This document shows positions 1,355-28,813 of a stretch of 28,813 nt of DNA, one piece after another (position 1 is the stretch's first letter; each line of letters starts with the position of its first letter). Location: contig JAEORG010000388.1 in NCBI GenBank assembly GCA_016841005.1, forward strand, positions 1 to 28,813. Reading direction: 5' to 3'. Below the pieces are notes generated by a model. It was given only the letters and a program-made list of their open reading frames with translations, was not told the DNA's origin and did no database searches. Origin of the DNA: Candidatus Thorarchaeota archaeon (lineage in GTDB: Archaea > Asgardarchaeota > Thorarchaeia > Thorarchaeales > Thorarchaeaceae). The position numbers were made by a program, and so were the translations under genes.

Positions 1355-1450
1355 AAACCTTGGTTTAGATTGTATCACACTTCCATGTGAACATTAGGAT
1401 TACTAGAAGTGAAATTCAACAAGTTGATTGTGAAGAGGGATGAAGTAAGA

Positions 1451-3508
1451 ATGAAGCGGGAAGTTGCTCTTTCAGTTGTGGTCATGGGAATTTTACTGGC
1501 ATCTGTGTTTTGGCAATCAGGAATGGCAGCTAAACCACCAAAAGCTAGTCTTAGTGTCAATACTTCTGAACCAGTGGATGGTGTAGTAGTAGAGACTGGT
1601 GGTTCGTTTGATGTAGTAGGAATTGTTAACGCTATTAAAGGAGATGCAGGTGCGGTTCGAGTTTATGTGCAGTTCTCATATGGAGAAGACACGTCCAATT
1701 TCGAAAATGTTGATGGTAATACCCTTAGTATTGTAAACGGTCAGCAACCTTACTCTACTGCTTTACTCAACGGAGAGAGTGTTTCTGTATCATGGACCCT
1801 CACTGGACAACCTGGAACCTATGAGATAAGGGTTTACGCTGTTGCGGACCTTGCCAAATCTGGTAGCTCAAATTCTGTAACAGTAATAATTGAAGCTCCA
1901 CCTCCTCCACCAGGAGTATTCCTTATCTCTGGTGAAAATCAAGACTCATCTATTGGATATGGAAGTTCATCAGGAACTTATTCTAACACATTTTATGATG
2001 ATGGAGTATATGAGATTCTATCAGAAGAGAAGAACGCACATGGTACCAAGAAACCTGTGGATGATTCTACTGAACTAGGTTGGATTTTTGAGTTTAATCT
2101 ACCAACTCCTCGGTCAACAACTACTTTCTACTTCTATGGGTATGCTGAATTCCCTGAAGGTGACAGTGATACCACCTTCTTAGTTCAGGAGGAATTGGGG
2201 GGTTCATGGAGTACAATTCTGGAAATATCTCATATAAGCCAAAATAAGATTCTATATTCCGAATTATCTGACCTAACCAGTCCATCAGTTAGTCTTCGTA
2301 TTGTAGATGATGATCAGTCTATCGGGAACAAGATACTATCATCATTATACATTGATCAAGCTTTTATCGGGGGAGATGATTATGAAGCTCCAATTAGTGG
2401 AATAGAGATTCTTACAGCCCCGTATACTTGCCATAGATTCCAAGCTTGGGAGAATTACGGGAACAATTGGTATCATGATACTGATATACCGATAACTTCT
2501 GCAGCTGCTACGGACATCGGAATTGTCGACTTGGACTTTGACGGACATAATGAATTAGTTGTTGCTAAAACGATGAGCGAAATACATGGAACAGGCATCG
2601 TTGAGATATTTGACATGGATTTGGGTACTTCTCCTGTCGATACACTCGTTCTTCCAGAACCAATTGTTGCAGCGGTTATGTCAATTGCAGTGGGTAATTT
2701 TGATGATGACCCTGACCTAGAGATTGCAGGCGCTGCAGCTTATGGTGGCGCTGTAATCTGGGATAAAGTGGACGGAAAATACCAAGTCGCCTTAATGTTG
2801 CTTGAGGACTCAGTCGTTGATTTAGTCAATGCGGGTAATCTGGATGCAGATGATGAACTCGAAATTGTATTCGCTAATGGATTTGACCCAGTTCTCTGCG
2901 AGGTGATGTTATATGACTTTGATTCGACATTGGGTACTTGGATAAATACTGCAAATTGCTCTAACTTTTCATCGCCAGACGATGAGTATAGATTCTTCTA
3001 CAATCTGGAGATTTGTGATATTGATAGTGATGGTATAGGGGAACTATATGTCAACTATATGGGAGGTTTATTCCGAATCCTCTGTTACACTAATGGTGAA
3101 CTGGTAGATTTCTGGCCAACACCAAATCTTGTTACATACGGAGATGTTGGTTGCAGTTTTGTACTGGGTGATATTACAAATGATGGAAAACTAGATCTTG
3201 TATTCTATACGCCATTCTTAGCGACTGGAACTGGTTTTCGAATTTTCGAGTTCGATTCAGTACACGGATTCGTGAATACCTACAACATCAGCAATCCCGG
3301 AATGTCGAACCTCTTCGGAGATCAGATGGCTATCGGAGATATTGATGGAGATATGTTGAATGAACTTGTAGTTTCAGGTGGTCCTGGTGGCATCTATTCA
3401 GAAGGAAAGTTATACATCTTCAGATTCGATACACTAATCTTCAGCGCAGATTTGAATGCCAATGAATCTAACTCCGTGGCAATTGGTGACTATGATAATG
3501 ATGCATAA
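1451..3508 (+). CDS. secreted FG-GAP/VCBS beta-propeller protein, C-terminus ends mid-repeat
   Basis: Predicted exported protein of 685 residues. The start chosen is ATG 1451, giving a classic signal peptide (MKRE, then hydrophobic to about residue 25) with GAGGGA ten bases upstream. A longer GTG start at 1409 merely adds 14 charged residues. After the signal come an Ig-like segment (about 25-145), a proline run, a beta-sandwich-like region (about 155-305) and FG-GAP/VCBS repeats to the end, recognisable by Ca2+ loops such as DLDFDGHNELVVA, DIDSDGIGELYV, DITNDGKLDLVFY and DIDGDMLNELVVSGG. The last repeat stops after GDYDNDA, so the propeller blade is incomplete. There is no C-terminal membrane anchor, unlike the other surface proteins in this window. 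A role in ligand binding or adhesion is inferred from the fold only. Confidence 0.75.
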   Translation: MKREVALSVVVMGILLASVFWQSGMAAKPPKASLSVNTSEPVDGVVVETGGSFDVVGIVNAIKGDAGAVRVYVQFSYGEDTSNFENVDGNTLSIVNGQQPYSTALLNGESVSVSWTLTGQPGTYEIRVYAVADLAKSGSSNSVTVIIEAPPPPPGVFLISGENQDSSIGYGSSSGTYSNTFYDDGVYEILSEEKNAHGTKKPVDDSTELGWIFEFNLPTPRSTTTFYFYGYAEFPEGDSDTTFLVQEELGGSWSTILEISHISQNKILYSELSDLTSPSVSLRIVDDDQSIGNKILSSLYIDQAFIGGDDYEAPISGIEILTAPYTCHRFQAWENYGNNWYHDTDIPITSAAATDIGIVDLDFDGHNELVVAKTMSEIHGTGIVEIFDMDLGTSPVDTLVLPEPIVAAVMSIAVGNFDDDPDLEIAGAAAYGGAVIWDKVDGKYQVALMLLEDSVVDLVNAGNLDADDELEIVFANGFDPVLCEVMLYDFDSTLGTWINTANCSNFSSPDDEYRFFYNLEICDIDSDGIGELYVNYMGGLFRILCYTNGELVDFWPTPNLVTYGDVGCSFVLGDITNDGKLDLVFYTPFLATGTGFRIFEFDSVHGFVNTYNISNPGMSNLFGDQMAIGDIDGDMLNELVVSGGPGGIYSEGKLYIFRFDTLIFSADLNANESNSVAIGDYDNDA

Positions 3509-12958: not shown

Positions 12959-14371
12959 ATGCGAAGTGAGAGAGATAGCACCGAATTACTAACAGACTTC
13001 GGACTCACTCCATATCAGGCAAAGGTCTATCTCGCTGCCATTAAATTGGGTCCATCAACTGCAGGGAAAATTGCTAAAGTTGCAAGAGTTCGTAGAGAAG
13101 AAGTTTATCGAACTCTACCAAAGTTGGAAAAGGCAGGTCTTATTGAACGTATACTTGGACGCCCCATAAAAGTTCGTGCGCTCCCTCTAGAAGATGCTCT
13201 CTCTATACTGGTGAAACGAAAAGAGGATGCAGCTAGACAAGAATTAGCTGATTTAGAAGCGAAGAAAGAAGACTTGATTGAGAGTTTCAACACTGAGCGA
13301 CCATCAATAGAATTAGAAGATGATATTTCGCAGTTTGTGTTAGTGACTGAGAGGGATACTATTGCAAGGAGAATGGAAGTTTTAATCGAAGAATCTACTC
13401 ATGTGATTGACCTTGTTGAAACTGTGAATAATGTAGTAAGATTTCTGTTATCTTTCGAAGATTCTGTTTTAAAATCAGTAAGAAATAATGTGCAAATCAG
13501 AATTCTCACCGAATGTCCTCAAGATGAAGATATGCTCCCACGAACGTTATCCAAAATGATACCGGCGAAGAATGTATCATTGAGATATGTTGATGATATT
13601 CCTGGAAGATATGTACTCTTTGATCAAAATAAAGTGATGTTAGCGACCTCTGCAAAAGGGGGACTCACTGACACAAAATTCCTTCTCAGTGAAGACACCA
13701 ATCTAGTTTCATTGATTAAGAGAGACTTTGAAGAGCAATTCCGACGTTCTGTAGATTGGAAAGCCTACCAATCTACGTCAGCAGGAAATCTCGGACGAAC
13801 ACTCAAAAATCTGAGGCCTCGTGATCATGTTGTTCTATTCTATGATTCTTGCGAACTCAAACATGAAGTCCTTTTCAATTACATCAAAGCAGGACTTGAG
13901 CAGGGTGAAGCCACAAAGTACGTATGCTCCGAACAGACTCCCGAGGAGATCCGAAAATCTATGAATCAATTTGGAATTGATGTGACACTACATGAACGCA
14001 CAGGAGCTCTGCAAGTATTAGATTATACAGACGTGTACATTGTTGATGGGAATTTCAGTATAGACGACGTTATGGAAACTTGGGAGAGATTTCACACAGA
14101 ATCTCGAGCATTAGGTTTCAACGGAATGCGTGTCACTGGAGAGATGGCTTGCTTTTTCAAACATGGATTGGTCAAGGAGCTTATGGAATATGAAAGGGCG
14201 TTACACACAGTCCTAGATATACCAATTACAGCAATCTGTGCATACAGTACTAAAGTCCTAGAGGAAGTTGAGCATCCTATTAACATCTATTCTGAACTTG
14301 TAAAAGCTCATGGAAAGGTGCTTTTCGCAGCTAAAGATAATCCAATAGGACGCATTGAGGTACGTGTATGA
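12959..14371 (+). CDS. TrmB-family transcriptional regulator fused to a MEDS (DcmR-type) sensory domain
   Basis: 470 residues from ATG 12959, which has GAGGGG eight bases upstream; the ATG at 12953 is only two bases from it. Residues about 8-80 form a TrmB winged helix (LTDFGLTPYQAKVYLAAIKL, then RREEVYRTLPKLEKAGLIER). Residues 85-112 form a charged helix, probably a coiled coil, and 125-265 the TrmB C-terminal effector-type region. Residues about 286-435 match a MEDS sensory domain: DHVVLFYDSCELKHEVLFNYI, AGLEQGEATKYVCSE, and GMRVTGEMACFF. TrmB proteins are archaeal regulators of sugar and other metabolic genes. MEDS domains occur in sensors such as DcmR of methylotrophs and in methanogen signalling proteins. 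Fusion suggests one regulator reading two inputs. The target and ligand are unknown; its divergent partner is the kinase-like membrane protein. Confidence 0.88.
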   Translation: MRSERDSTELLTDFGLTPYQAKVYLAAIKLGPSTAGKIAKVARVRREEVYRTLPKLEKAGLIERILGRPIKVRALPLEDALSILVKRKEDAARQELADLEAKKEDLIESFNTERPSIELEDDISQFVLVTERDTIARRMEVLIEESTHVIDLVETVNNVVRFLLSFEDSVLKSVRNNVQIRILTECPQDEDMLPRTLSKMIPAKNVSLRYVDDIPGRYVLFDQNKVMLATSAKGGLTDTKFLLSEDTNLVSLIKRDFEEQFRRSVDWKAYQSTSAGNLGRTLKNLRPRDHVVLFYDSCELKHEVLFNYIKAGLEQGEATKYVCSEQTPEEIRKSMNQFGIDVTLHERTGALQVLDYTDVYIVDGNFSIDDVMETWERFHTESRALGFNGMRVTGEMACFFKHGLVKELMEYERALHTVLDIPITAICAYSTKVLEEVEHPINIYSELVKAHGKVLFAAKDNPIGRIEVRV

Positions 14372-17166: not shown

Positions 17167-20100
17167 CTATTCGAGTCTTCTTCTACGTCGCCAGGCAATG
17201 GCGATGGGCACCATCAGGAGCATAAAGATTGGTACTCCAGTAACGGTTGCCATTACAATCATATCTGCGAATGTCATTGCTGCTAGTAGCGGTACCTCTG
17301 GTATTGGTGGTGCAACAGGAATTGGTAGACTTCCGGATATTACATATACAGAACCTTCCCAATAGGAAACAACATCCATAGGATAGCTTGGCCCTACAAA
17401 ACGACCAGCTAGGGGTTTGAGAACACGATGGTCTGTTGAGTAGTGCCAGAGAAGCTCAGCGTTGACAATACTAACGACATCTAGATATCCATAATTTGTG
17501 AAGATCAGGTCGTCCGTACCATCACCATCCATATCTGTAAAGGAACATGTTGAGTCTTGGGCACCAACTAATAGTGGAGCAAGCCAACGCCACTCTTCTC
17601 CTCCGGAACGATTGAATCCATAGATGCCATAACGTTCAGAACTCACAACCAATTCGTCAAGCCCATCTCCATTAAGATCAGCAGTATAAGTTCCCCTAGG
17701 TGGTGCTAGGAAATTAATGTAGCCACCCGCGAATTGTGTGTGAGTCTGTCCATTTATGATATGAGGGTCATAGCCATTGTCTAACCATATGTAGTCCATG
17801 AATGCATCGCCATTCATATTACCGGTGTACAGTCCATAGACACTTGGCCCACCTGTCCAAATCGCTGATTGAAGAACTCCATCTGTGCCTCGGAAGGTAT
17901 GTATTATCTCATCGGATCCTCCCATAAGCACATCAGGTCTACCATCACCTGTGGTATCTCCAATAGCCATATGGAACGATGAACCAGAGCTATTCACATT
18001 AGATCTGTAATGCTCATTTCCGTTTACGTCGTACCATCCTACAAAGACATCAGTTCCATCATTCCACAAAACAGCAATTTCGTCAGCAGTATAAGCTCCT
18101 GAAAAATCGCCTATGTAGAAGTCTTCTGGATTGAATCCGGGAGCGTTATACACCGCGCCTACCTCATTACCGTCGTTTCCTCTCAAGATGTAGATATCTC
18201 GTTCCTTATCAGAAACAACAACGTCTAACCATCCTGTTCCATCCATGTCACCAACTCGGACTCTACCAGGAGTTCCATTGACTTCGTAAGTCCAGATGAT
18301 TGCGCCGTTTGTTCCATTGATTAGAGAAACCGATTTGTTATACCATGCGATTATTTCATCGAACCCATCAGAGTTCACATCTGAAACAACCGTTCCTCTG
18401 ATAGTCGCATTAGTATATTCATTATTCCAATAGACTCCATGAACTGGATATGCTTCCATTTCATCTGGGATAACACGTTCATAGCTGTCAACAGCCATAA
18501 TATTGTGACTCCAAAAGTCCCACATCATACCAGAATCAATTCCCGTACCATGGATATCACCAGATGATACAGTATATGGGAATCCACCCGTCCGATTGAA
18601 CCATAGAGGCACTCCGCTCTGTCCATCTATAGCTACTAGTACACCATCACTCGCAGTTGATGCATTCACGTACCCGACTAAGATGTCATAGCTTCCAGAC
18701 CCTCCAAAGTATCCCAGACTGACATCCCAAGTCCAGTAGTTCGGATGTGGTTTATAATACCACTGTACTGCACCTGCGTCGACGTCTTCGAGGAATACAC
18801 CTCCGAATGGGGAATAGCCTGCGACTTCATATGAGCCGTCATCATCAAAGTCCTCCACCCATATATTCCAGAGCCCCTTGAAGCCTGTGGTGTTGGAATA
18901 AATGAATGTGGAGTTGTAGAAGAGTACTGATGAGTTTACATCCAAAATTTGGAACCGATCACGAGCAAAGAGAAGATCATCCATCCCATCATCATTGAAG
19001 TCATGCGCGACTGGCTTTACTGCATAAGTAGCAGTACTGGAAGAGGAGTAGAATACGGTACCATTCATGACATTCATCACATTGATACTCGCCCCGGCTA
19101 TAAATGCAAGAGTCAGGTTCTCACTTCCAGTGTAGTTTCCAAACGTCATCTGAGTGACATCACCAAGTCCAGGATTCCATTGATGTAACGTGATGCCATT
19201 ATGGTCTAAGAGAAAGACGTCATCACCTAATGTTCCAAATGCTATTTCTGGCCAACCATCCAAATCTGCATCTGCAACATCTATAGCAAATATGTCCGTG
19301 GTTGCATCATCATTCTTCCAAACAACACTACCATCCTGAATATCCAATACCCAGAGTGAGTCATCATCACATCCGAGTATGACTTCAGGTATTGTATCAT
19401 TCGTTATGTCTGCAAGAAGCATATTATTGAAACCAGCACCTGCGTCAGTATTATTCCACAGAATAACACCATTCTCATCAAATGCTATGACTTCTCCCTT
19501 CGTGGATTGAGCTGCTATCATTTCTTCCTTGCCATCATTATCAAGATCAAAGGACTCCAGTGTATTCCAATTCGCCCAGTTTCCAATACCTGAAGTAGCA
19601 ACTGTCAGATTTTGCTTTGAACCATAGAACCCTGCAAATCCTTCAGAGATATCGATGTATTCAAAGAAGAACACATCTCCACGCTCACATGACAAGGCAA
19701 TATCATCCCAACCATTACCATTGCTGTCTGAAACCTCAATACCTGTCACAGGGTATTCGTATTCTGGTGAGAGATAGTCCTCTGTATAGTACATCACTCC
19801 ACCACCAATATTTGATGAGTTCAGTTCATTGACACTGTATTGATGGTCGAATGCAACCACTACTTCTCGTCTACTATCACCATCCGTGTCTCCTACATCT
19901 AGGTCAACAACATCATGCAGATGATTAAGTGCCCAATCAGACTGGGGATTAATACCATAGACCAGATCTAAAGAAGGTAACTTAAACCAGCCAGATAGCG
20001 AACCTAATGTCTGATAGTACATATAGTAGTTTACAAATGATGCCGCATAGATGAATCCTCCTTCATCTCTCGCAAAGAAGGCAGGACTGTAGATTTCAGG

Positions 20101-20697
20101 TTGGAGAAGTGGAATTCCTCCTCTCAAATACTGGACATATCCACCAGGATACTCTACACGGTCTACATCGGTTGGGATGGTATTGAGATATCCTTCAACA
20201 TTCCAAGTCCGACCATCATCCTGGCTTGCAATCATACCAAATCTATCTTCAAGTACCGCTCCAATCCGCTCATAGAGAACAACGAGACTTTTGTCAGTGG
20301 TGTTGAGCTCGTCAATATCTACGTACATTTCTTCATAGAAACTTGTAGTTGCCTGACTTGCATATATTCCTGTGAAGTTGAGTTTATTCGTACCTACTGC
20401 GACCCAGATATCATGGTCTGCCTTGTAGAGACTCGGATTCGTTGCAGACATGGCCATTGCAAATCTTCCATCATCAAGCCTGATGACTTCTGCATCGTGG
20501 ACTATTAGATCTCCAACATTCTCTAGTTGGGTATATGCAGACTTCCAAGTGCCAGTTAGATCGTTATCAAAGAGCTTGATTTGGACAGTCCAAGATTTAA
20601 ATCCAATCCACTGCCAATCAAGGACATAAGCAACACCAATGTGTGTATCATTGTATTGAAATACACTCGGACTATGCCTGTATCCAAATTCTAGCAC
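17167..20697 (-). CDS. C-terminal half of giant FG-GAP/sialidase-like surface protein, after in-frame TAG
   Basis: 1176 residues if read from GTG 20697, but the frame is open back to the TAG at 20749-20751 and translates sensibly there (YDYSIPAWGPGIAVPRD). That GTG has no ribosome binding site or signal peptide, so this is best seen as the continuation of the gene that starts at 25140. Residues 1-250 look like sialidase/BNR propeller, with an Asp-box SQDDGRTW at 158-165. The rest is FG-GAP/VCBS or PQQ-like repeats (DLDNDGKEEMIAAQ, DADLDGWPEIAFG, DMDGTGWLDVVVS, DLNGDGLDELVVS, DMDGDGTDDLIF). The C-terminus has a proline-rich spacer, a membrane helix (about 1140-1168) and the tail WRRRRRLE, so the propellers would be displayed outside the cell. 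Its stop is TAG. Confidence 0.75.
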   Translation of the reverse strand: MLEFGYRHSPSVFQYNDTHIGVAYVLDWQWIGFKSWTVQIKLFDNDLTGTWKSAYTQLENVGDLIVHDAEVIRLDDGRFAMAMSATNPSLYKADHDIWVAVGTNKLNFTGIYASQATTSFYEEMYVDIDELNTTDKSLVVLYERIGAVLEDRFGMIASQDDGRTWNVEGYLNTIPTDVDRVEYPGGYVQYLRGGIPLLQPEIYSPAFFARDEGGFIYAASFVNYYMYYQTLGSLSGWFKLPSLDLVYGINPQSDWALNHLHDVVDLDVGDTDGDSRREVVVAFDHQYSVNELNSSNIGGGVMYYTEDYLSPEYEYPVTGIEVSDSNGNGWDDIALSCERGDVFFFEYIDISEGFAGFYGSKQNLTVATSGIGNWANWNTLESFDLDNDGKEEMIAAQSTKGEVIAFDENGVILWNNTDAGAGFNNMLLADITNDTIPEVILGCDDDSLWVLDIQDGSVVWKNDDATTDIFAIDVADADLDGWPEIAFGTLGDDVFLLDHNGITLHQWNPGLGDVTQMTFGNYTGSENLTLAFIAGASINVMNVMNGTVFYSSSSTATYAVKPVAHDFNDDGMDDLLFARDRFQILDVNSSVLFYNSTFIYSNTTGFKGLWNIWVEDFDDDGSYEVAGYSPFGGVFLEDVDAGAVQWYYKPHPNYWTWDVSLGYFGGSGSYDILVGYVNASTASDGVLVAIDGQSGVPLWFNRTGGFPYTVSSGDIHGTGIDSGMMWDFWSHNIMAVDSYERVIPDEMEAYPVHGVYWNNEYTNATIRGTVVSDVNSDGFDEIIAWYNKSVSLINGTNGAIIWTYEVNGTPGRVRVGDMDGTGWLDVVVSDKERDIYILRGNDGNEVGAVYNAPGFNPEDFYIGDFSGAYTADEIAVLWNDGTDVFVGWYDVNGNEHYRSNVNSSGSSFHMAIGDTTGDGRPDVLMGGSDEIIHTFRGTDGVLQSAIWTGGPSVYGLYTGNMNGDAFMDYIWLDNGYDPHIINGQTHTQFAGGYINFLAPPRGTYTADLNGDGLDELVVSSERYGIYGFNRSGGEEWRWLAPLLVGAQDSTCSFTDMDGDGTDDLIFTNYGYLDVVSIVNAELLWHYSTDHRVLKPLAGRFVGPSYPMDVVSYWEGSVYVISGSLPIPVAPPIPEVPLLAAMTFADMIVMATVTGVPIFMLLMVPIAIAWRRRRRLE

Positions 20698-20748
20698 ATC
20701 TCGAGGAACAGCTATTCCTGGTCCCCATGCAGGTATTGAGTAGTCATA

Positions 20749-20751
20749 CTA
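20749..20751 (-). other. in-frame TAG codon interrupting the propeller gene
   Basis: Minus-strand context is GTC ACC TAG TAT GAC. The reading frame before it (from 25140) and after it (to 17167) is the same; no insertion or deletion is needed to join them. The joined product would have 2657 positions counting the TAG. See findings for alternatives. Confidence 0.9.
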
Positions 20752-23700
20752 GGTGACGAAGAGATAGCTACTTCCATTGGATGCTCTTCCATTCCAAGTT
20801 ATGTACATCCTATTACCCCACGATGATGCGTGAGGTTCAGTTTCATAGTCAATAGTTGTACTCTGAGGATATGGGAGTGTGAGATCACCCATTGGCTCCC
20901 ACAATTCAGTGGTAACATTGTATCGTTTTCTCCATATTTTGGAGTAACCCGCTTCATCGTGTTCGAAGAGCATTACTTGAATGTCATCAGCGCTGGGGTG
21001 TCTAATCTGAGTGATACATTTTCTGCTTCTATTGGCAAAACCAAAGGCATCACCGCTAACCCATGTGCTCTGTAATGGCACGTTGGGATAGTTAGGAGAT
21101 GCAGTGACATATTCCACCTTGACATATGAGTTATCAGCTCCAACTTCATGTTCCCACATATCAAACCCGTTAGCGTGACCGATAATAATCTCAACCTCAC
21201 TATCATAGTCTTGATCATCGAGTTCGATTACACTAATTGGATTCCAATAGGTCACTTCAGTAGGTGCATACCACGACCAATAGAAGGTTCCTCCCCGACA
21301 TTCGTAAATGTGTACAAAGCCATTTTGCCGTATTAAACGATTGTCCATGATTCCGCCTAGAAGAATCTCACGGTATCCATCTTTATCCGTATCTCCAACA
21401 TTTATAGCATGAATCTCAGCATATCTACCATTAGCTATACGTGGATTGCCAATGAGGAAGTAACGACCTTCCATGACCGCAGTTGTTACAAAGTAGTCAT
21501 TATCCTCCATAGCAACAAATGAACCATGATTGACATTGTATATGAAGAGGTATGGACCAGCAGCAACAACAAGGTCTCCTCGACCGTCACTATCCACATC
21601 ATTTCCCGCAGCAAGTGCTGTTATCTCAGTCACATAGTCTATGAATTGAATATCATCACTCCACTCTGTATCTCTGAGATCGAACGAATAGACAAACTGC
21701 ACAGCGTCTCCACCAAAGAGACCCACCTCCTCAAAGATGTATATCTGGAGATTAGCTGCTACGATGATTTCCTTTAATCCATCATGATCTAAATCGACAT
21801 CTGCAACCAAGTGTTTTGCATGGTCCCAGATGCGTCTGTTGAAATCACCTGATATTCCTTCTAATTCTTCATATGCATATGGACTCACATCACTTGTTTC
21901 TGAATGATTTAAGTCGAATGACCTGAACATTCGTTTGTAGGTATTATTGACGAGATGTTCAAATGCATAGACATTGTTGTCATAGTCACCTATGATAATC
22001 TCATTCTTTCCATCATGGTCTGTGTCTGCAGAAGTTATTGATAACGTCCAACCATCTAAGTCAGCATCATTATTCCAATCTTCCATCACATGATATCCGA
22101 GATTGTAGAATTTACCAAATGACCCTGCCATAAGATTGAGATTGAGTCTAGCCACCCGTGGATAGCTAGCCACCACAAACGAATCAGCACTTCCCCACAC
22201 TGGCTCAGCAAACCAGAGATAGTTGGTGTATGTGTTGTATCCATATAGATAGTAGTCAGGTCTGTCGAATCCACCAAGTTCCATGAGTCGCTCCAAGTAG
22301 AGCCCATCATAATATGAGCCCCAATCCTGTACAATTCTGACATCAGTGATATTCAGAAGTTTGAGATTTGTGAACTCTCCAGGGTTAGACATTATCTTCT
22401 TATGTTCAACCCAAATCGGGTCTTCAGCAGTACCATCGTTGATGAACACTGTAGAACCATTCTTGCTATCATAGCTTAACACAAGATCGAAGTCACCATC
22501 TCCATCTAAATCAGCGAAATCAGGTTGACCCCAAACTACACTGGTTTCTAGGTTGTTTATATCATCGAAATACCCAGGTACGAGAGTGAAGTTGAGATGG
22601 CCAGTAGCACCTTCATCGCCTAATTTCAGGTTCTCAGCCATGTAAACATAGCCATTCGATACAACAAAGTCTTGGTCACCATCTCCATCATAGTCTGCAA
22701 ATGAAACCTTTGGAGTTGTCTTGGCAAGATTGATCTGTGACGTTAATTGACCATCAACATCCATTTGCCAGAGAGGAACATAGTCACCAAACGAGTCTGT
22801 GTAGAACTGTCTATAATAGAAGAACAACTGAGCACGAAATAGAATGCTAGCCGAGTCTATTGGGATGTCCTCATTGATGCCACCAACAACAAGCATAGGT
22901 AGTGGATTATTGGGATAAGGTGGATTATTGTAATACTCATCCCAAATATAGGCGGGTTCTACTGAAACCCTTTCAAATCCCCAGGCAAGACTTTGGAAAT
23001 CGAGGTTGATTGGATTGAGAACGTTGTTCGTTGTAAGTGTGTCCACTGCACCATAGATATCATGGGCAACAATCTTTGGTAGTCCTCCTCCTTCAGGATA
23101 TTGAGCAAGGAACATATTGAAAATCTGTTCCGTATACGGATCAATGACTCCTGAACTCCACTGATTCGGTATATATCCCACATCCGAATCAAAGCTGATT
23201 CCAGACCACAGGTTCCATGCAGGGATATCACTATCAGTGTTTACTTGAACCATATCCCAGATACCAGCACCAAAGGTGTAGTAATCGTCATCGCCAGATT
23301 CCCAGAACAAGTCGTAGACCTCTGTAGATGAATTGTATTTGATACCAAGCATCTCTCCAACAACTGTACCTACAATTATCTTGTTTTGTTCTACACCTCC
23401 ATCGTACCATAGATCACCATCCTCTTTGAGTTGACCTATCGTAACTGAGAGAGCATCAGTAATCAAGTTGTAGACTTGTTGGAGTTCAAGTGAGTTGATA
23501 GTATATGTAGCTCCGTTGAAGACCGAAATCTTCGCATACCGGAACCAATCCCATTTTCTTCTTCCTAATGCATCATCAACGTCAACCTTAAGGTAGAATC
23601 CTGAATAGACGAAGCGATCGGGTGATACTTGTTCGAAGTCCTTACCATCTTGAGATATGCTAAAGTTGAAGTATGGACTGATATCAGCGCCAGATATGAA

Positions 23701-25140
23701 GAGCCCACTGAACTTAATCCATACATCAGGATCAGCGTTCGCACTACCAGTTCCTTCCTCGTCTAAACCAAAATCAACCACTGCAGTTGCGTTATCAACT
23801 GATGGGTCACTTGCATCGAACACAGAGAAATTGCCATCTGGAATATAGGCCATTCCTGAGTTGAAAGGATACACACTGGCATTTGGTACAAAGTATGCTC
23901 CACCCCAGACGTAGTTAATTGGTTCAGGTTCTACAATCGATCCATTATACGGATCAAAGTAAGTAACATTCCAGGCTTCTGTGACTCGGTCCACATAGGT
24001 ATCAAGTCCCCAGTATCCGAATGTTTCCCAAGGTTTGAACTCCTTGTAGACCTTATTGTAGTCAAACGTCTTCTTGTCTTGGTTCCAATCAAGGGTGAAG
24101 ACTCCTTGTCCTTGGGAAACTAATGCAATCTCATCACCAGTATCTCCATCAAGCTCACCAGCCTCCATGGAGAGTATAGGCGACCAAGTATAGTTCTGAC
24201 TTGTCCAATTCAGGTAGTAATGATTGTCATAGATTAGCGGGAATGGTTGACCATTAATCCAAAGGGTGACACCATCATTCTCGTAGACATATACAGTACC
24301 ATCTCGTGTACCTACCACAATATCCGGAAGACCATTTGCATTGACATCACCAGTAGCTAGTGAATACACCTTGTCACCAACATCGAGAACAGCTACTTGA
24401 TCATATGTTATCCAGTGGTCCTCAACGAAGGGATACCCAGAATGGTTGTCATATTCAAATAGATGGACCTTACCGTCCCAGCCTCCAGCAATAATATCTG
24501 GTCTGTAGTCTCGGTCAACATCATCAACAACGACTGAAAACACGCGGTCCATATCAGGACTCTTCCAGACGAAGTCGAATTGGTTCTCTGTGTTTGCATA
24601 GGGATCATAGATGTGCCGCTGCTCAAAGACATAGACATGACCATCAGCACACGCAGCTACAATCTCAAGGAAATTGTTGAGGTCTGTATCACCGAAAGCT
24701 AGACTCATCACGTCACTCTGGAAAACACTGTCTCCTGTATCCCAGACCTTGTCAAACTGGTTGGTCTCTACATTATGCCTGAATAGGTGAACTTCATTGT
24801 CATAGAGATATCCACCACCCAGTGCAAGGAACCCAGTCGCCTCGTCATATGCCATAGCATGAATGGCAGCCTTAGACTTCCAAGGTTCATAGAACATCTT
24901 GTAGTCGTTATCTCTGTCACCCAGTACTGCACCGATGTCATAGTCAGCGGGGAGATACGGATTGTCCTCAGCAAGTGCCTGTTCGATTGAGGGTATCATC
25001 TCCTCTGGGATAGAATCTAACGGCGAACCATTAGTCGTCTCAAATGTATTCCCAACCTTTGCGGGCACAGTCGGGACAACACCAAATGTTCCAATGACTA
25101 GAACAGCCATGAACATGACAGTCAGAAGTTTGAACTTCAC
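20749..25140 (-). CDS. N-terminal half of giant FG-GAP surface protein, ended by TAG
   Basis: 1463 residues. GTG 25140 is chosen because GGGAGG lies eight bases upstream, inside the end of the preceding gene, and the product begins MKFKLLTVMFMAVLVIGTFG, a clear signal peptide; ATG 25158 only adds residues encoded by that binding site. Residues about 45-410 are FG-GAP/VCBS repeats (DTDLNNFLEIVAAC, DVDRDYRPDIIAGG, DVNANGLPDIVVG). About 450-560 is a discoidin-like beta-sandwich, and a second propeller follows (DYDGDGDQDFVVS, DLDGDGDFDLVLS, DTDHDGKNEIIIG, DSDGRGDLVVAAG). The last 110 residues begin a sialidase-like propeller that continues beyond the TAG. It has no membrane anchor of its own. One base separates it from the stop of the upstream gene, so translation is probably coupled. 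Confidence 0.8.
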   Translation of the reverse strand: MKFKLLTVMFMAVLVIGTFGVVPTVPAKVGNTFETTNGSPLDSIPEEMIPSIEQALAEDNPYLPADYDIGAVLGDRDNDYKMFYEPWKSKAAIHAMAYDEATGFLALGGGYLYDNEVHLFRHNVETNQFDKVWDTGDSVFQSDVMSLAFGDTDLNNFLEIVAACADGHVYVFEQRHIYDPYANTENQFDFVWKSPDMDRVFSVVVDDVDRDYRPDIIAGGWDGKVHLFEYDNHSGYPFVEDHWITYDQVAVLDVGDKVYSLATGDVNANGLPDIVVGTRDGTVYVYENDGVTLWINGQPFPLIYDNHYYLNWTSQNYTWSPILSMEAGELDGDTGDEIALVSQGQGVFTLDWNQDKKTFDYNKVYKEFKPWETFGYWGLDTYVDRVTEAWNVTYFDPYNGSIVEPEPINYVWGGAYFVPNASVYPFNSGMAYIPDGNFSVFDASDPSVDNATAVVDFGLDEEGTGSANADPDVWIKFSGLFISGADISPYFNFSISQDGKDFEQVSPDRFVYSGFYLKVDVDDALGRRKWDWFRYAKISVFNGATYTINSLELQQVYNLITDALSVTIGQLKEDGDLWYDGGVEQNKIIVGTVVGEMLGIKYNSSTEVYDLFWESGDDDYYTFGAGIWDMVQVNTDSDIPAWNLWSGISFDSDVGYIPNQWSSGVIDPYTEQIFNMFLAQYPEGGGLPKIVAHDIYGAVDTLTTNNVLNPINLDFQSLAWGFERVSVEPAYIWDEYYNNPPYPNNPLPMLVVGGINEDIPIDSASILFRAQLFFYYRQFYTDSFGDYVPLWQMDVDGQLTSQINLAKTTPKVSFADYDGDGDQDFVVSNGYVYMAENLKLGDEGATGHLNFTLVPGYFDDINNLETSVVWGQPDFADLDGDGDFDLVLSYDSKNGSTVFINDGTAEDPIWVEHKKIMSNPGEFTNLKLLNITDVRIVQDWGSYYDGLYLERLMELGGFDRPDYYLYGYNTYTNYLWFAEPVWGSADSFVVASYPRVARLNLNLMAGSFGKFYNLGYHVMEDWNNDADLDGWTLSITSADTDHDGKNEIIIGDYDNNVYAFEHLVNNTYKRMFRSFDLNHSETSDVSPYAYEELEGISGDFNRRIWDHAKHLVADVDLDHDGLKEIIVAANLQIYIFEEVGLFGGDAVQFVYSFDLRDTEWSDDIQFIDYVTEITALAAGNDVDSDGRGDLVVAAGPYLFIYNVNHGSFVAMEDNDYFVTTAVMEGRYFLIGNPRIANGRYAEIHAINVGDTDKDGYREILLGGIMDNRLIRQNGFVHIYECRGGTFYWSWYAPTEVTYWNPISVIELDDQDYDSEVEIIIGHANGFDMWEHEVGADNSYVKVEYVTASPNYPNVPLQSTWVSGDAFGFANRSRKCITQIRHPSADDIQVMLFEHDEAGYSKIWRKRYNVTTELWEPMGDLTLPYPQSTTIDYETEPHASSWGNRMYITWNGRASNGSSYLFVT

Positions 25141-25141
25141 T

Positions 25142-28100
25142 CTATGCACCTCCCTCATCGCCCTTCTCGGGGCTCTCTTTCGTTTCTTTCTTCGTAGTCT
25201 TCTTCTCTGAAGGCTTTGATTCCTTTTTCTTCGTGGACTTCTTTTTATCAGGCGGCCCTCGCCGCAAGACCTTCCGTTTGAGCCATCCTCCTCCAGCCCG
25301 TAGTTTTCTCCGCACCCCTCCCTTCGTTCGCCAGTCTATCAGTATTAGAAGGAAGATGAACACAGCAACTGCAATTGCCGCTATGAGGACATACATCCAG
25401 AACGGGTCGTCACCCGCACGTACGGTAAACCAGACTTCCTGTGCGTGTATCACACCAAGACGGTCACGGGCAAATACCTGTACATGCTGTTCACCGACAT
25501 CCCATCGGACTGTCGTGTTCTGCCAGAGACCTGATGCGGGAACATAGACCAGGCTGACGTTGTCACTCCACCCAGTTCCATTCTCGTACCTGAACCAGGC
25601 ATCTTGGAAGAAGGTGTGATTCAATAGACTCACTGGTGTGTTTTGGTATCCAGTGGAACCATTTGTGGGAGTAAGAATCTGCATGGTCGACTGTCCTCTC
25701 GCCAGCGCAAGGAACATCTCGAACTCTTCCTTTGTATTTGGAGTCAGTGGATCCATGCCCAAGGCAACCTCAAGACCGTCGCCGTAACCATCCCCATCTG
25801 TATCCATTTTTGCAGGATGAGTACCGTATATCCAGTATTCGTCCCCATCGAGGAGACCGTCCAGATCACTATCCGGATAGAAGATTCCTCCATGCGGTAA
25901 CGCCTGAAGACCGTTCTCATACTCCATTGCGTCGGGCATACCATCGTAATCTGTATCGAACTCATATGAGTCAGGAAGCCCGTCTCGATCCGAGTCTGTG
26001 TTTGCGGGATCTGTGTGGTAGAAGTGTACTTCAGCTCCATCTGGAAGCCAGTCCCCGTCACTGTCATCATCGAGGGCACTGGTACCATAGAGACCCTCTA
26101 CCACTGGTGTCTGTGCCAGGGAATAGGAATCTGGATAGGAATATCCAGGTGGCAGACTAGCTGGATATATCGGGGCAGGTGGAGCCTCGCCTACTGGCGG
26201 GTCGTTCTCCGTACCCCATCCTATAGACCAATTGACAGGCGGCCATGGTCCATATGGATAGACCTCATACAGGTCTTCTTCCCAGTCATAGAGCTCATCT
26301 CCATCGGTATCATTATTGATTGGACTAGTACCGTAGACCCAGGTCTCTTCCCAGTCACCTAGCGTGTCATTATCGCTGTCAGGATTCGCAGGATTGCAGT
26401 TGAACACAAGCACTTCCTGATAGTCTGTCAATGTGTCATTATCCGAATCCATCACTACCGGACTCGTGTTGTACCTGAATACTACTGTGACACTCACGTA
26501 CGGATAGACAATGTCGCTCACGTTCTGAAGGAGCAACTCCATACCATCTGGTAACCAATCTCCGTCGGTATCTTCGTTTGTTGCATTAAGGGGCATTGGA
26601 TCAAGCCATGGAATGATAGGACGTGGAGCAGTTCCATAGTAGTTCATCCATCCACCGAGGTATAACTCGATGCCATCATCCAGCCCATCCATGTCTGAGT
26701 CTGCTTTTGTGGCGTTCGTACCATAGAGGATGACCTCATCGTAGTCATTCATTGGCCAGGTGAAGTCACCGAACTCGTTAGGCTCGTATATCGTATCGTG
26801 ATCTGTATCCCAGTTCAACGGATCTGTATTGTAGAGGACTATTTCTTCACCGTCACTCAAACCATCATCGTCCGAATCATAGTCGAACGCGTCGGTGAAG
26901 TAGATCTTGATTTCTTCAAAGTCCGTGAGTCCATCGTTATCGCCATCTTCGTCCATGGGGTCTGAGTAATACACCAGTACTTCTTGACCATCCAACAACG
27001 TGTCTCCATCGCTGTCATCAATTAGTGGATTTGTGTGCCAGATGTAAACTTCCTCGCCATCTTGAAGCCCATCAAAATCAGTATCTGCGACGTTAGGATT
27101 GGTGAAGAACTTGTAGAACTCATCACCATCTGGAATCAAGTCATGGTCAGTATCAGCGTCGCGAGGATCAGCACCGAGGAGTATCTCCTGCATATCTCCG
27201 AGACCGTCGTCATCAGTATCCGCATCTGTTGGCGAAGTGTGATTACTATACTGATTCAGGACACCCTCGATTCCGTCAATTAACCCATCGTCATCCGTGT
27301 CGCCATCTGTAGGATCTGTCGGTGGTGTCTGTGCGAGCTCGTAACCATCGCTGTTCAGCCATGCACCGGGTTGAGGAGTACGGTCAGTAACGCCAGTGTC
27401 CCCATCAGTATCAGGATTACATGGATTTGGAAAGACATGCTTTCGTTCCGGCTCACCCTCTTGGTCATACACGATAATCCAGAACCCAGCGACCTCTGCA
27501 CCGTCATTCATGTCCTTGAGGAAGAGAGGTGCCTGCGAGTCAATCATTCCATTATACAGCTGGAGGTACGAATCATCGTCTGTATCGGCATCTAATGGAT
27601 GAGTGTATCCTTGGTTGAATATGATGGGGTCTGGGTCAAAGCCTGAACCTTCTGTATCGTTGTAGAGGCTATCTAGGCCATAGAAGCAGCCTGTAGGACC
27701 TTCATCCCCATCGACCAAACCGTCTCCGTCCGTATCTGGATTAAGAGGATCAGTCCTGTCGTTGTAGGTCTCTCCGCCGATGATAACTTCAGTGACAGTT
27801 GGAGTGACTCCTGTGATGTTGAGTTTGGTCCGAACTTCATACGCATCACTGAGACCATCGCCATCAGTATCTTGTGTGAGAGGATCTGTTCCGTAGATTC
27901 GTTCCTCCTCGAAATCTGTGAGCCCATCCCAATCAGTATCCTCAAAGTGGGGGCTCGTTCCGAGGTTCCACTCTTCCCAGTCAGTGAGCCCGTCATCGTC
28001 GTTATCGGGATCTGTTGCGTCTGTAGCCATCTCTTGGACTTCTAGCTTGTCATTTGCGCCGTCTCCGTCAGTGTCAGGATTATGGGGATCAAGTCCGGGA

Positions 28101-28813
28101 ATGGTCGACTCATATTCATCGCTTAATCCATCGCCATCATCATCAAACCCGACACCTGAGCTCTCATACTCAGGTTCACCTTTACTGGGTGACAGGTCCC
28201 ATGGCCCTCCAGGCTCCCACGTCCACTCCCCATCCCAGTCCCAGAAGAGGAACGTCAGGGTGAGCTTTATCGTAAACACCAGCCGCAACAATATCTGCAT
28301 AGGCGCGTTCGAAGACAGGTCCTGGAAGAACGTCAGTATGATCTCCAACGATCCTCTGAACTTCACAGCGACAATGAGTAAGTCTAATCCTATATTCAAG
28401 GCAGCACCTATAGTAAATGCGAGACTCAGGGTCGAGACCTCCGCTTCCAGAGCTGTTGCCGCCTTCTTTACTATGTCCAGTTCAATCTGGAACCATATGT
28501 CAATACTAATCGAATCTAGACCGAGGAACTCACCAAGTTTGTTGAGGACGCCTCCACCGCATCCACCAGTAATGACATCCAACAGTGTGATAGTCCGCTC
28601 GATACCAATCTGAATGCTAAGACCCCACTCTACGACCTTGAAGAACTCGTCCCACTCGAAGACTCCGCCCCTGAAGGTAAAGAGGTTCAGGAGGAAGTGA
28701 GCAGAACCAGAGAATGACAGTTCCACACCCAAATATGCAAGGAGCATGGTGAGGAATGGATTCTTGGAAGAGTCGAATCCATCAACACCTAATTCAGCGT
28801 AGAACTGAGGTTG
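25142..28813 (-). CDS. thrombospondin type-3-repeat surface protein, 5' end beyond window
   Basis: Open from the window edge to TAG 25142 (1223 codons visible); the start lies outside, so numbering here is from the first Met, at 28747. Residues 1-200 are unrecognised, with long amphipathic or hydrophobic stretches (MQILLRLVFTIKLTLTFLFW) and no sign of a signal peptide in view. Residues 202-1004 hold about 26 calcium-binding repeats of the form D-x-D-x-D-G-x-x-D-x-x-E, as in thrombospondin type-3 repeats, mostly 22-25 residues apart with several longer insertions. About 1020-1110 is an Ig-like module, 1116-1137 a membrane helix, and 1138-1201 a cytoplasmic tail extremely rich in Lys, Ser, Thr and Glu (KKKSTKKKESKPSEKKTTKK). 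It would form a calcium-stiffened stalk on the cell surface, co-expressed with the propeller protein. Confidence 0.85.
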   Translation of the reverse strand, partial: QPQFYAELGVDGFDSSKNPFLTMLLAYLGVELSFSGSAHFLLNLFTFRGGVFEWDEFFKVVEWGLSIQIGIERTITLLDVITGGCGGGVLNKLGEFLGLDSISIDIWFQIELDIVKKAATALEAEVSTLSLAFTIGAALNIGLDLLIVAVKFRGSLEIILTFFQDLSSNAPMQILLRLVFTIKLTLTFLFWDWDGEWTWEPGGPWDLSPSKGEPEYESSGVGFDDDGDGLSDEYESTIPGLDPHNPDTDGDGANDKLEVQEMATDATDPDNDDDGLTDWEEWNLGTSPHFEDTDWDGLTDFEEERIYGTDPLTQDTDGDGLSDAYEVRTKLNITGVTPTVTEVIIGGETYNDRTDPLNPDTDGDGLVDGDEGPTGCFYGLDSLYNDTEGSGFDPDPIIFNQGYTHPLDADTDDDSYLQLYNGMIDSQAPLFLKDMNDGAEVAGFWIIVYDQEGEPERKHVFPNPCNPDTDGDTGVTDRTPQPGAWLNSDGYELAQTPPTDPTDGDTDDDGLIDGIEGVLNQYSNHTSPTDADTDDDGLGDMQEILLGADPRDADTDHDLIPDGDEFYKFFTNPNVADTDFDGLQDGEEVYIWHTNPLIDDSDGDTLLDGQEVLVYYSDPMDEDGDNDGLTDFEEIKIYFTDAFDYDSDDDGLSDGEEIVLYNTDPLNWDTDHDTIYEPNEFGDFTWPMNDYDEVILYGTNATKADSDMDGLDDGIELYLGGWMNYYGTAPRPIIPWLDPMPLNATNEDTDGDWLPDGMELLLQNVSDIVYPYVSVTVVFRYNTSPVVMDSDNDTLTDYQEVLVFNCNPANPDSDNDTLGDWEETWVYGTSPINNDTDGDELYDWEEDLYEVYPYGPWPPVNWSIGWGTENDPPVGEAPPAPIYPASLPPGYSYPDSYSLAQTPVVEGLYGTSALDDDSDGDWLPDGAEVHFYHTDPANTDSDRDGLPDSYEFDTDYDGMPDAMEYENGLQALPHGGIFYPDSDLDGLLDGDEYWIYGTHPAKMDTDGDGYGDGLEVALGMDPLTPNTKEEFEMFLALARGQSTMQILTPTNGSTGYQNTPVSLLNHTFFQDAWFRYENGTGWSDNVSLVYVPASGLWQNTTVRWDVGEQHVQVFARDRLGVIHAQEVWFTVRAGDDPFWMYVLIAAIAVAVFIFLLILIDWRTKGGVRRKLRAGGGWLKRKVLRRGPPDKKKSTKKKESKPSEKKTTKKETKESPEKGDEGGA
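25736..28144 (-). repeat. coding tandem array of about 26 thrombospondin type-3-like units
   Basis: Degenerate tandem coding repeats, basic period about 66-75 bases, each encoding an acidic loop such as DTDGDGLSDAYE or DSDDDGLSDGEE followed by a G/T-DP-type linker. Longer inserts interrupt the array near the sixth to eighth, sixteenth to eighteenth and twenty-first units. The DNA copies have diverged, so this is an old expansion rather than recent slippage. Confidence 0.85.

Follow-up and report, generated by a model that had tools for sequence, protein, structure and literature searches.

A single in-frame TAG codon within an otherwise intact giant surface-protein gene of a Candidatus Thorarchaeota archaeon

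The locus and the joined reading frame

The subject of this analysis is a giant gene for a predicted surface protein that is interrupted by one in-frame stop codon. The gene lies on the minus strand of a stretch of 28,813 nucleotides (positions 1 to 28,813 of contig JAEORG010000388.1, assembly GCA_016841005.1) from a Candidatus Thorarchaeota archaeon, and this whole stretch is called the window below. From 25158 to 17170 the minus strand can be read as a single frame of 2663 codons whose sole stop is the TAG at 20749-20751, which is codon 1470 when counted from the ATG at 25158; counted from the GTG at 25140, the joined frame has 2657 codons. An earlier note on this DNA had described two frames joined only by this TAG and a length of 2657 codons from the GTG, and re-reading of the minus strand showed the frames, the stop and the coordinates all to be correct. 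The joined frame is not a product of chance, since relatives match along the entire joined protein. As a start site the GTG at 25140 looks better than the ATG at 25158, because the motif GGAGGTG (25147..25153, minus strand), a likely ribosome binding site, lies 6 bases upstream of it and because the protein that starts there resembles the consensus start of its relatives. The first start codon past the TAG is the GTG at 20695..20697 of the minus strand (GTG 20697). The earlier note had described it as lacking a ribosome binding site, and we reached the same result: apart from a GAG at 2 bases upstream nothing precedes it that could serve as one.

The joined protein is laid out as an FG-GAP, a sialidase-like and a second FG-GAP region, with a hydrophobic stretch at either end. 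The first half (20752..25140, minus strand) is an open frame that encodes a hydrophobic N-terminus, FG-GAP propeller repeats (Pfam FG-GAP, 1.5e-19) and the start of a sialidase-like propeller. The second half (17167..20748, minus strand) is likewise an open frame and encodes the remainder of the sialidase-like propeller, FG-GAP/PQQ-like repeats identified with Pfam and a C-terminal hydrophobic helix; relatives match it to its end, where it terminates with the TAG at 17167-17169. The hydrophobic ends were judged by the mean hydropathy of 19 residues with a threshold of 1.6, and the mean exceeded 1.6 only at the N-terminus (residues 4-35) and at the C-terminus (residues 2622-2657). The C-terminal stretch (17188..17295, minus strand) lies ahead of an RRRRR tail, and a similar stretch followed by a basic tail is present in several relatives. 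Read from the hydrophobic ends alone, the protein would carry a signal peptide at the N-terminus and a membrane anchor at the C-terminus, so that the earlier description of a signal-only and an anchor-only half holds insofar as these are predicted roles.

Relatives of the protein and the residue at the stop position

The named relatives are mostly proteins of Candidatus Thorarchaeota, and the others come from Lokiarchaeota and further Asgard archaea. The closest has 72% identity over the searched region. The FG-GAP / PQQ-like proteins of Thorarchaeota and Lokiarchaeota, for example P0001 (72%), P0009 ('FG-GAP-like repeat-containing protein') and P0030 (Ca. Lokiarchaeum ossiferum), resemble the window protein in having about 2640 residues if full-length, the same Pfam domains and a hydrophobic anchored end. 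They align with it both before and after the TAG, but carry a sense codon there.

The protein set contained 42 entries. One, P0018, is the first half of the interrupted gene itself, and the remaining 41 were aligned; eight further proteins obtained in a search with the second half stand outside this residue count. Each of the 41 carries a residue in place of the TAG, namely W (12), Y (10), K (5), E (3), A (3), F (2), L (2), R (2), G (1) and M (1). The three closest proteins carry Y, Y and F, and the two with Y have 72% identity. An alignment-based scan of contigs gave 28 related genome loci, 20 of which span the codon and 8 of which do not, and none of the 20 spanning loci has a stop at this position. 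The comparison of relatives at the TAG, which had been proposed earlier as a check, therefore found a sense codon throughout (41/41 proteins and 20/20 spanning loci). Sense codons in many relatives are one half of what the earlier note had named as pointing to a simple nonsense mutation; for the other half, the absence of any amber-decoding tRNA, the survey of the nearest genome described below gives a partial answer. The closest locus (L001) and L027 both have a Tyr codon at this position, and the Tyr codon of the closest relatives is one substitution away from TAG. The earlier note had offered CAG or TGG as the codon that preceded the stop; both occur in more distant relatives, but they are not favoured, since the closest relatives have Tyr, Tyr and, as the third, Phe. 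The scan was extended to 47 genomes of the class of L001's genome, which we took as Thorarchaeia, with up to 6 candidates scored per genome; 25 matched places, which overlap the set of 28 loci, span residue 1470, and none of them has an internal stop.

The region at the stop changes fast. Identity to L001 is 71% over the 17 codons from the TAG to GTG 20697 and 68% over the 120 residues that precede the TAG; the corresponding values for L027 are 18% and 28%. L027 also carries the FG-GAP gene twice in tandem on one contig, the copies having 56% and 38% identity to the gene of the window.

The interrupted propeller and the two-gene alternative

The sialidase-like beta-propeller that contains the TAG was modelled over 391 residues (19939..21111, minus strand) with AlphaFold2, using 30 sequences and reading the TAG as Y. 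The model has a mean predicted local distance difference test (pLDDT) score of 89.7 and a predicted template modelling (pTM) score of 0.89, and the TAG corresponds to model residue 121, within the beta-strand formed by residues 115-123. Of the ten best rows of a Foldseek search against solved structures, nine are sialidases or neuraminidases, the best E value being 3.2e-8. The best fold matches of the interrupted domain are thus with propellers like those of GH33-type sialidases, but identities in the top ten are 8-12%, the template modelling scores (TM-scores) by query length are moderate (0.47-0.60) and the root-mean-square deviations are large (6.7-17.5). The Pfam sialidase model was reached by neither half when searched alone. 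The earlier suggestion that a sialidase-like propeller runs across the stop is thus supported as a resemblance by AlphaFold2 and Foldseek. An Asp-box-like motif, SQDDGRTW, is a further likeness to sialidases. Because the TAG falls within a beta-strand of a well-predicted propeller, the two halves do not have the look of natural units, and going by the model neither would be expected to form the sialidase-like propeller by itself.

The position of the break also bears on the idea that the two halves are separate cooperating proteins, the second of which is translated from GTG 20697. This idea would explain why the halves have complementary ends and are both repeat-rich, and shorter relatives of the second half do exist. 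A break within a modelled beta-strand speaks against it, as do the lack of a ribosome binding site at GTG 20697 and the lack of a hydrophobic N-terminus in the second half. Ten proteins were obtained with the second half as the query. One is the window's own, and 6 of the 9 others were mapped to the joined protein (P0049 to P0051 were left out). The matches of these six short relatives start at residues 942, 971, 1252, 1308, 1436 and 1696; none starts within residues 1471-1490, that is, near the TAG. The relative that starts at 1308 probably corresponds to L006, a frameshifted copy, and the start of P0044 at 1252 suggests a contig edge, because the match of G016, which runs from contig base 1, begins at residue 1245. 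The two-gene split was rejected, since the second half has no start signal of its own and no mapped relative splits at the same place, and we regard it as extremely improbable. The copy in L006 (= G010), which holds the one stop that the scans of relatives did find, has a lesion different from the TAG, a frameshift and a TGA near residue 1307 (near 13836-13915), on a contig with a coverage of 1.95.

Amber decoding, PylS and transfer RNA genes

An in-frame TAG in an Asgard archaeon calls to mind pyrrolysine (Pyl). Sun et al. 2021 (PMC9723677) describe Pyl recoding among Asgard archaea as restricted to Sifarchaeia; they also report a remnant transfer RNA (tRNA) for Pyl, tRNA-Pyl, from Thorarchaeia and Lokiarchaeia that lack the pyl cluster, with a role that the paper calls unknown. 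The Sifarchaeia gene and the gene of the window have in common that they come from Asgard archaea and contain a UAG within the reading frame. According to the same paper, the UAG of Sifarchaeia lies in a dimethylamine methyltransferase gene, in organisms with PylSBCD (PMC9723677), whereas the gene of the window belongs to a class in which no searched genome has PylS over the cut-off, and has its UAG at an unconserved site.

The PylS model (TIGR02367) matched over its cut-off of 178 bits in 0 of the 47 class genomes, the completeness of which is unstated. In 21 of the 47 it matched weakly, with no score above 22.4 bits; among the control genomes 13 of 14 also matched, one of them over the cut-off. 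The UAG is not conserved at the site in relatives, being absent from the 41 proteins, the 20 loci and the 25 class-genome places described above. TAG is moreover a common terminator. Among mechanically listed open reading frames (ORFs) of at least 200 codons, it terminates 32 of 85 across 16 of the 28 related loci; the figures are 14 of 46 for the nearest genome's loci and 4 of 12 for the window, the last of which includes the TAG at 20749-20751. The three other ordinary TAG termini to which the earlier note had pointed (10526, 17167 and 25142) do end frames in the window: the matches of relatives also end at 17167, and at 25142 the loci L001, L012 and L027 stop at the same place and L028 stops seven residues earlier. 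A genome-wide reassignment of TAG is not supported, as TAG is neither rare nor absent as a terminator.

The window contains no tRNA gene. RF00005 matched 31 times in the nearest genome; 30 of these loci were fetched, and tRNA calls with introns allowed were obtained at 25 of the 30, leaving five loci uncalled. No CUA anticodon is present among the calls at these 25 loci, some intron-containing calls of which may be misnamed. An approximate tRNA-Pyl query, run without a positive control, gave only weak short matches in 23 of the 47 genomes, with a best E value of 0.043. Twelve of the calls in the nearest genome (L047 and L056-L066) carry introns, and most of them were missed by ARAGORN with default settings; a default ARAGORN scan of these genomes undercounts or misnames tRNAs.

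These results limit what can be made of amber suppression, in which a tRNA with a CUA anticodon, for example a remnant tRNA-Pyl, would sometimes read the TAG and thus yield an anchored long form together with a released short form. The second half is intact, as suppression would have it, and a candidate tRNA of this kind is the tRNA-Pyl reported from Thorarchaeia and Lokiarchaeia that lack the pyl cluster (PMC9723677). The stop, however, is common to no relative examined, and the counts of PylS, of TAG termini and of anticodons given above all tell against suppression; nor does the site, with its unconserved residue, demand any special amino acid. We consider amber suppression very unlikely, and its narrower version, in which a CUA tRNA orphaned by the loss of a pyrrolysine system would decode the TAG at a low rate and give released and anchored forms, a little less likely still. 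Pyrrolysine decoding itself is not supported, since PylS is over the cut-off in none of the 47 class genomes and the UAG is not conserved in relatives, and on these grounds, together with the common TAG termini and the variable residue at the site, the earlier proposal of pyrrolysine or other recoding lacks support.

Rates of change and interpretation of the stop codon

The nonsynonymous divergence (dN) before and after the TAG is 0.17 and 0.31 against L001 and 0.27 and 0.48 against L027. The synonymous divergence (dS) is saturated against both, and dN is far below dS before as well as after the TAG. The faster change of the later half suggests a property of the family, because it appears by a similar factor in both pairs. 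Relative rates for the window were counted with four different outgroup choices, eight comparisons in all, of which 5/8 were not significant and 2/8 showed the opposite of an excess after the TAG (p printed as 0.00). The lack of a consistent sign of decay after the TAG suggests that the stop either arose recently, does no harm or is not a real one. An old pseudogene was rejected, as neither the divergence values nor the relative rates give a consistent sign of relaxed change past the TAG.

We conclude that this giant surface-protein gene is otherwise intact and that its TAG is very probably either a plain nonsense substitution or an error of the consensus. Of the two, a recent and genuine nonsense mutation in the population that was sampled seems to us fairly probable, and an assembly consensus error less so. 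With respect to the three causes that had been proposed earlier, a nonsense change and a base-call error both fit, and pyrrolysine or another recoding is not supported. Following this interpretation, the gene would encode one continuous, membrane-anchored, multi-propeller surface protein, as it does in relatives, and a single substitution would have turned one codon in the sialidase-like propeller into TAG. Translation would then end at the TAG, and the first 1463 residues would be exportable but would lack an anchor and would end in an incomplete propeller, while the remainder past the TAG would have neither a proper start nor a signal. What the data show directly is the stop, the unbroken protein in relatives and a propeller model that crosses the stop; loss of function, the recency of the change, the export of the first half and the fate of both halves are what we would infer.

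Several points weigh against this interpretation or blur it. One of the eight relative-rate comparisons gave an excess of change after the TAG (p 0.02). The tRNA survey covers the genome of the nearest relative and not the window's own. Distant relatives align poorly near the stop, so that their entries in the residue counts may be off by some columns, and mutation and error are inseparable because the data consist of the consensus of one strain. As a nonsense change the stop is of little significance, and its value is that of a caution: one in-frame TAG in a metagenome contig should not be read as recoding. If amber suppression were true, it would give a role to the remnant tRNA-Pyl of Thorarchaeia.

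Other genes of the contig and the conserved gene pair

The gene at 1409-3508 encodes a 699-residue FG-GAP protein that breaks off just behind one of its FG-GAP repeats and seemed truncated. Its 17 nearest relatives have 679-696 residues and align over 97-99% of the 699 with 55-65% identity. The gene is probably complete, because these relatives are of similar length and align over nearly all of it, and it was rejected as a further lesion in the contig on account of the lengths of its relatives.

Upstream of the interrupted gene lies a gene for a TSP3-repeat protein (25142..28813, minus strand; Pfam TSP3_bac, 1.4e-16), which is cut by the end of the contig and is a conserved partner of the FG-GAP gene. 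As a by-product, our analysis points to two giant surface proteins of Asgard archaea that form a conserved pair, and among the matches listed in a literature search there was no paper on this FG-GAP surface-protein family or pair. In 26 of the 28 Asgard and related loci the FG-GAP gene has a TSP3-repeat gene upstream of it; none was found in the other two, L009 and L021. Judged by the ends of the matches, the two genes lie within about 650 bases of each other in 25 of the 26. They overlap by 9-13 bases in five loci (L001, L012, L015, L027 and L028), and in 5 of the 28 (L002, L003, L014, L019 and L025) they are fused into one open frame.

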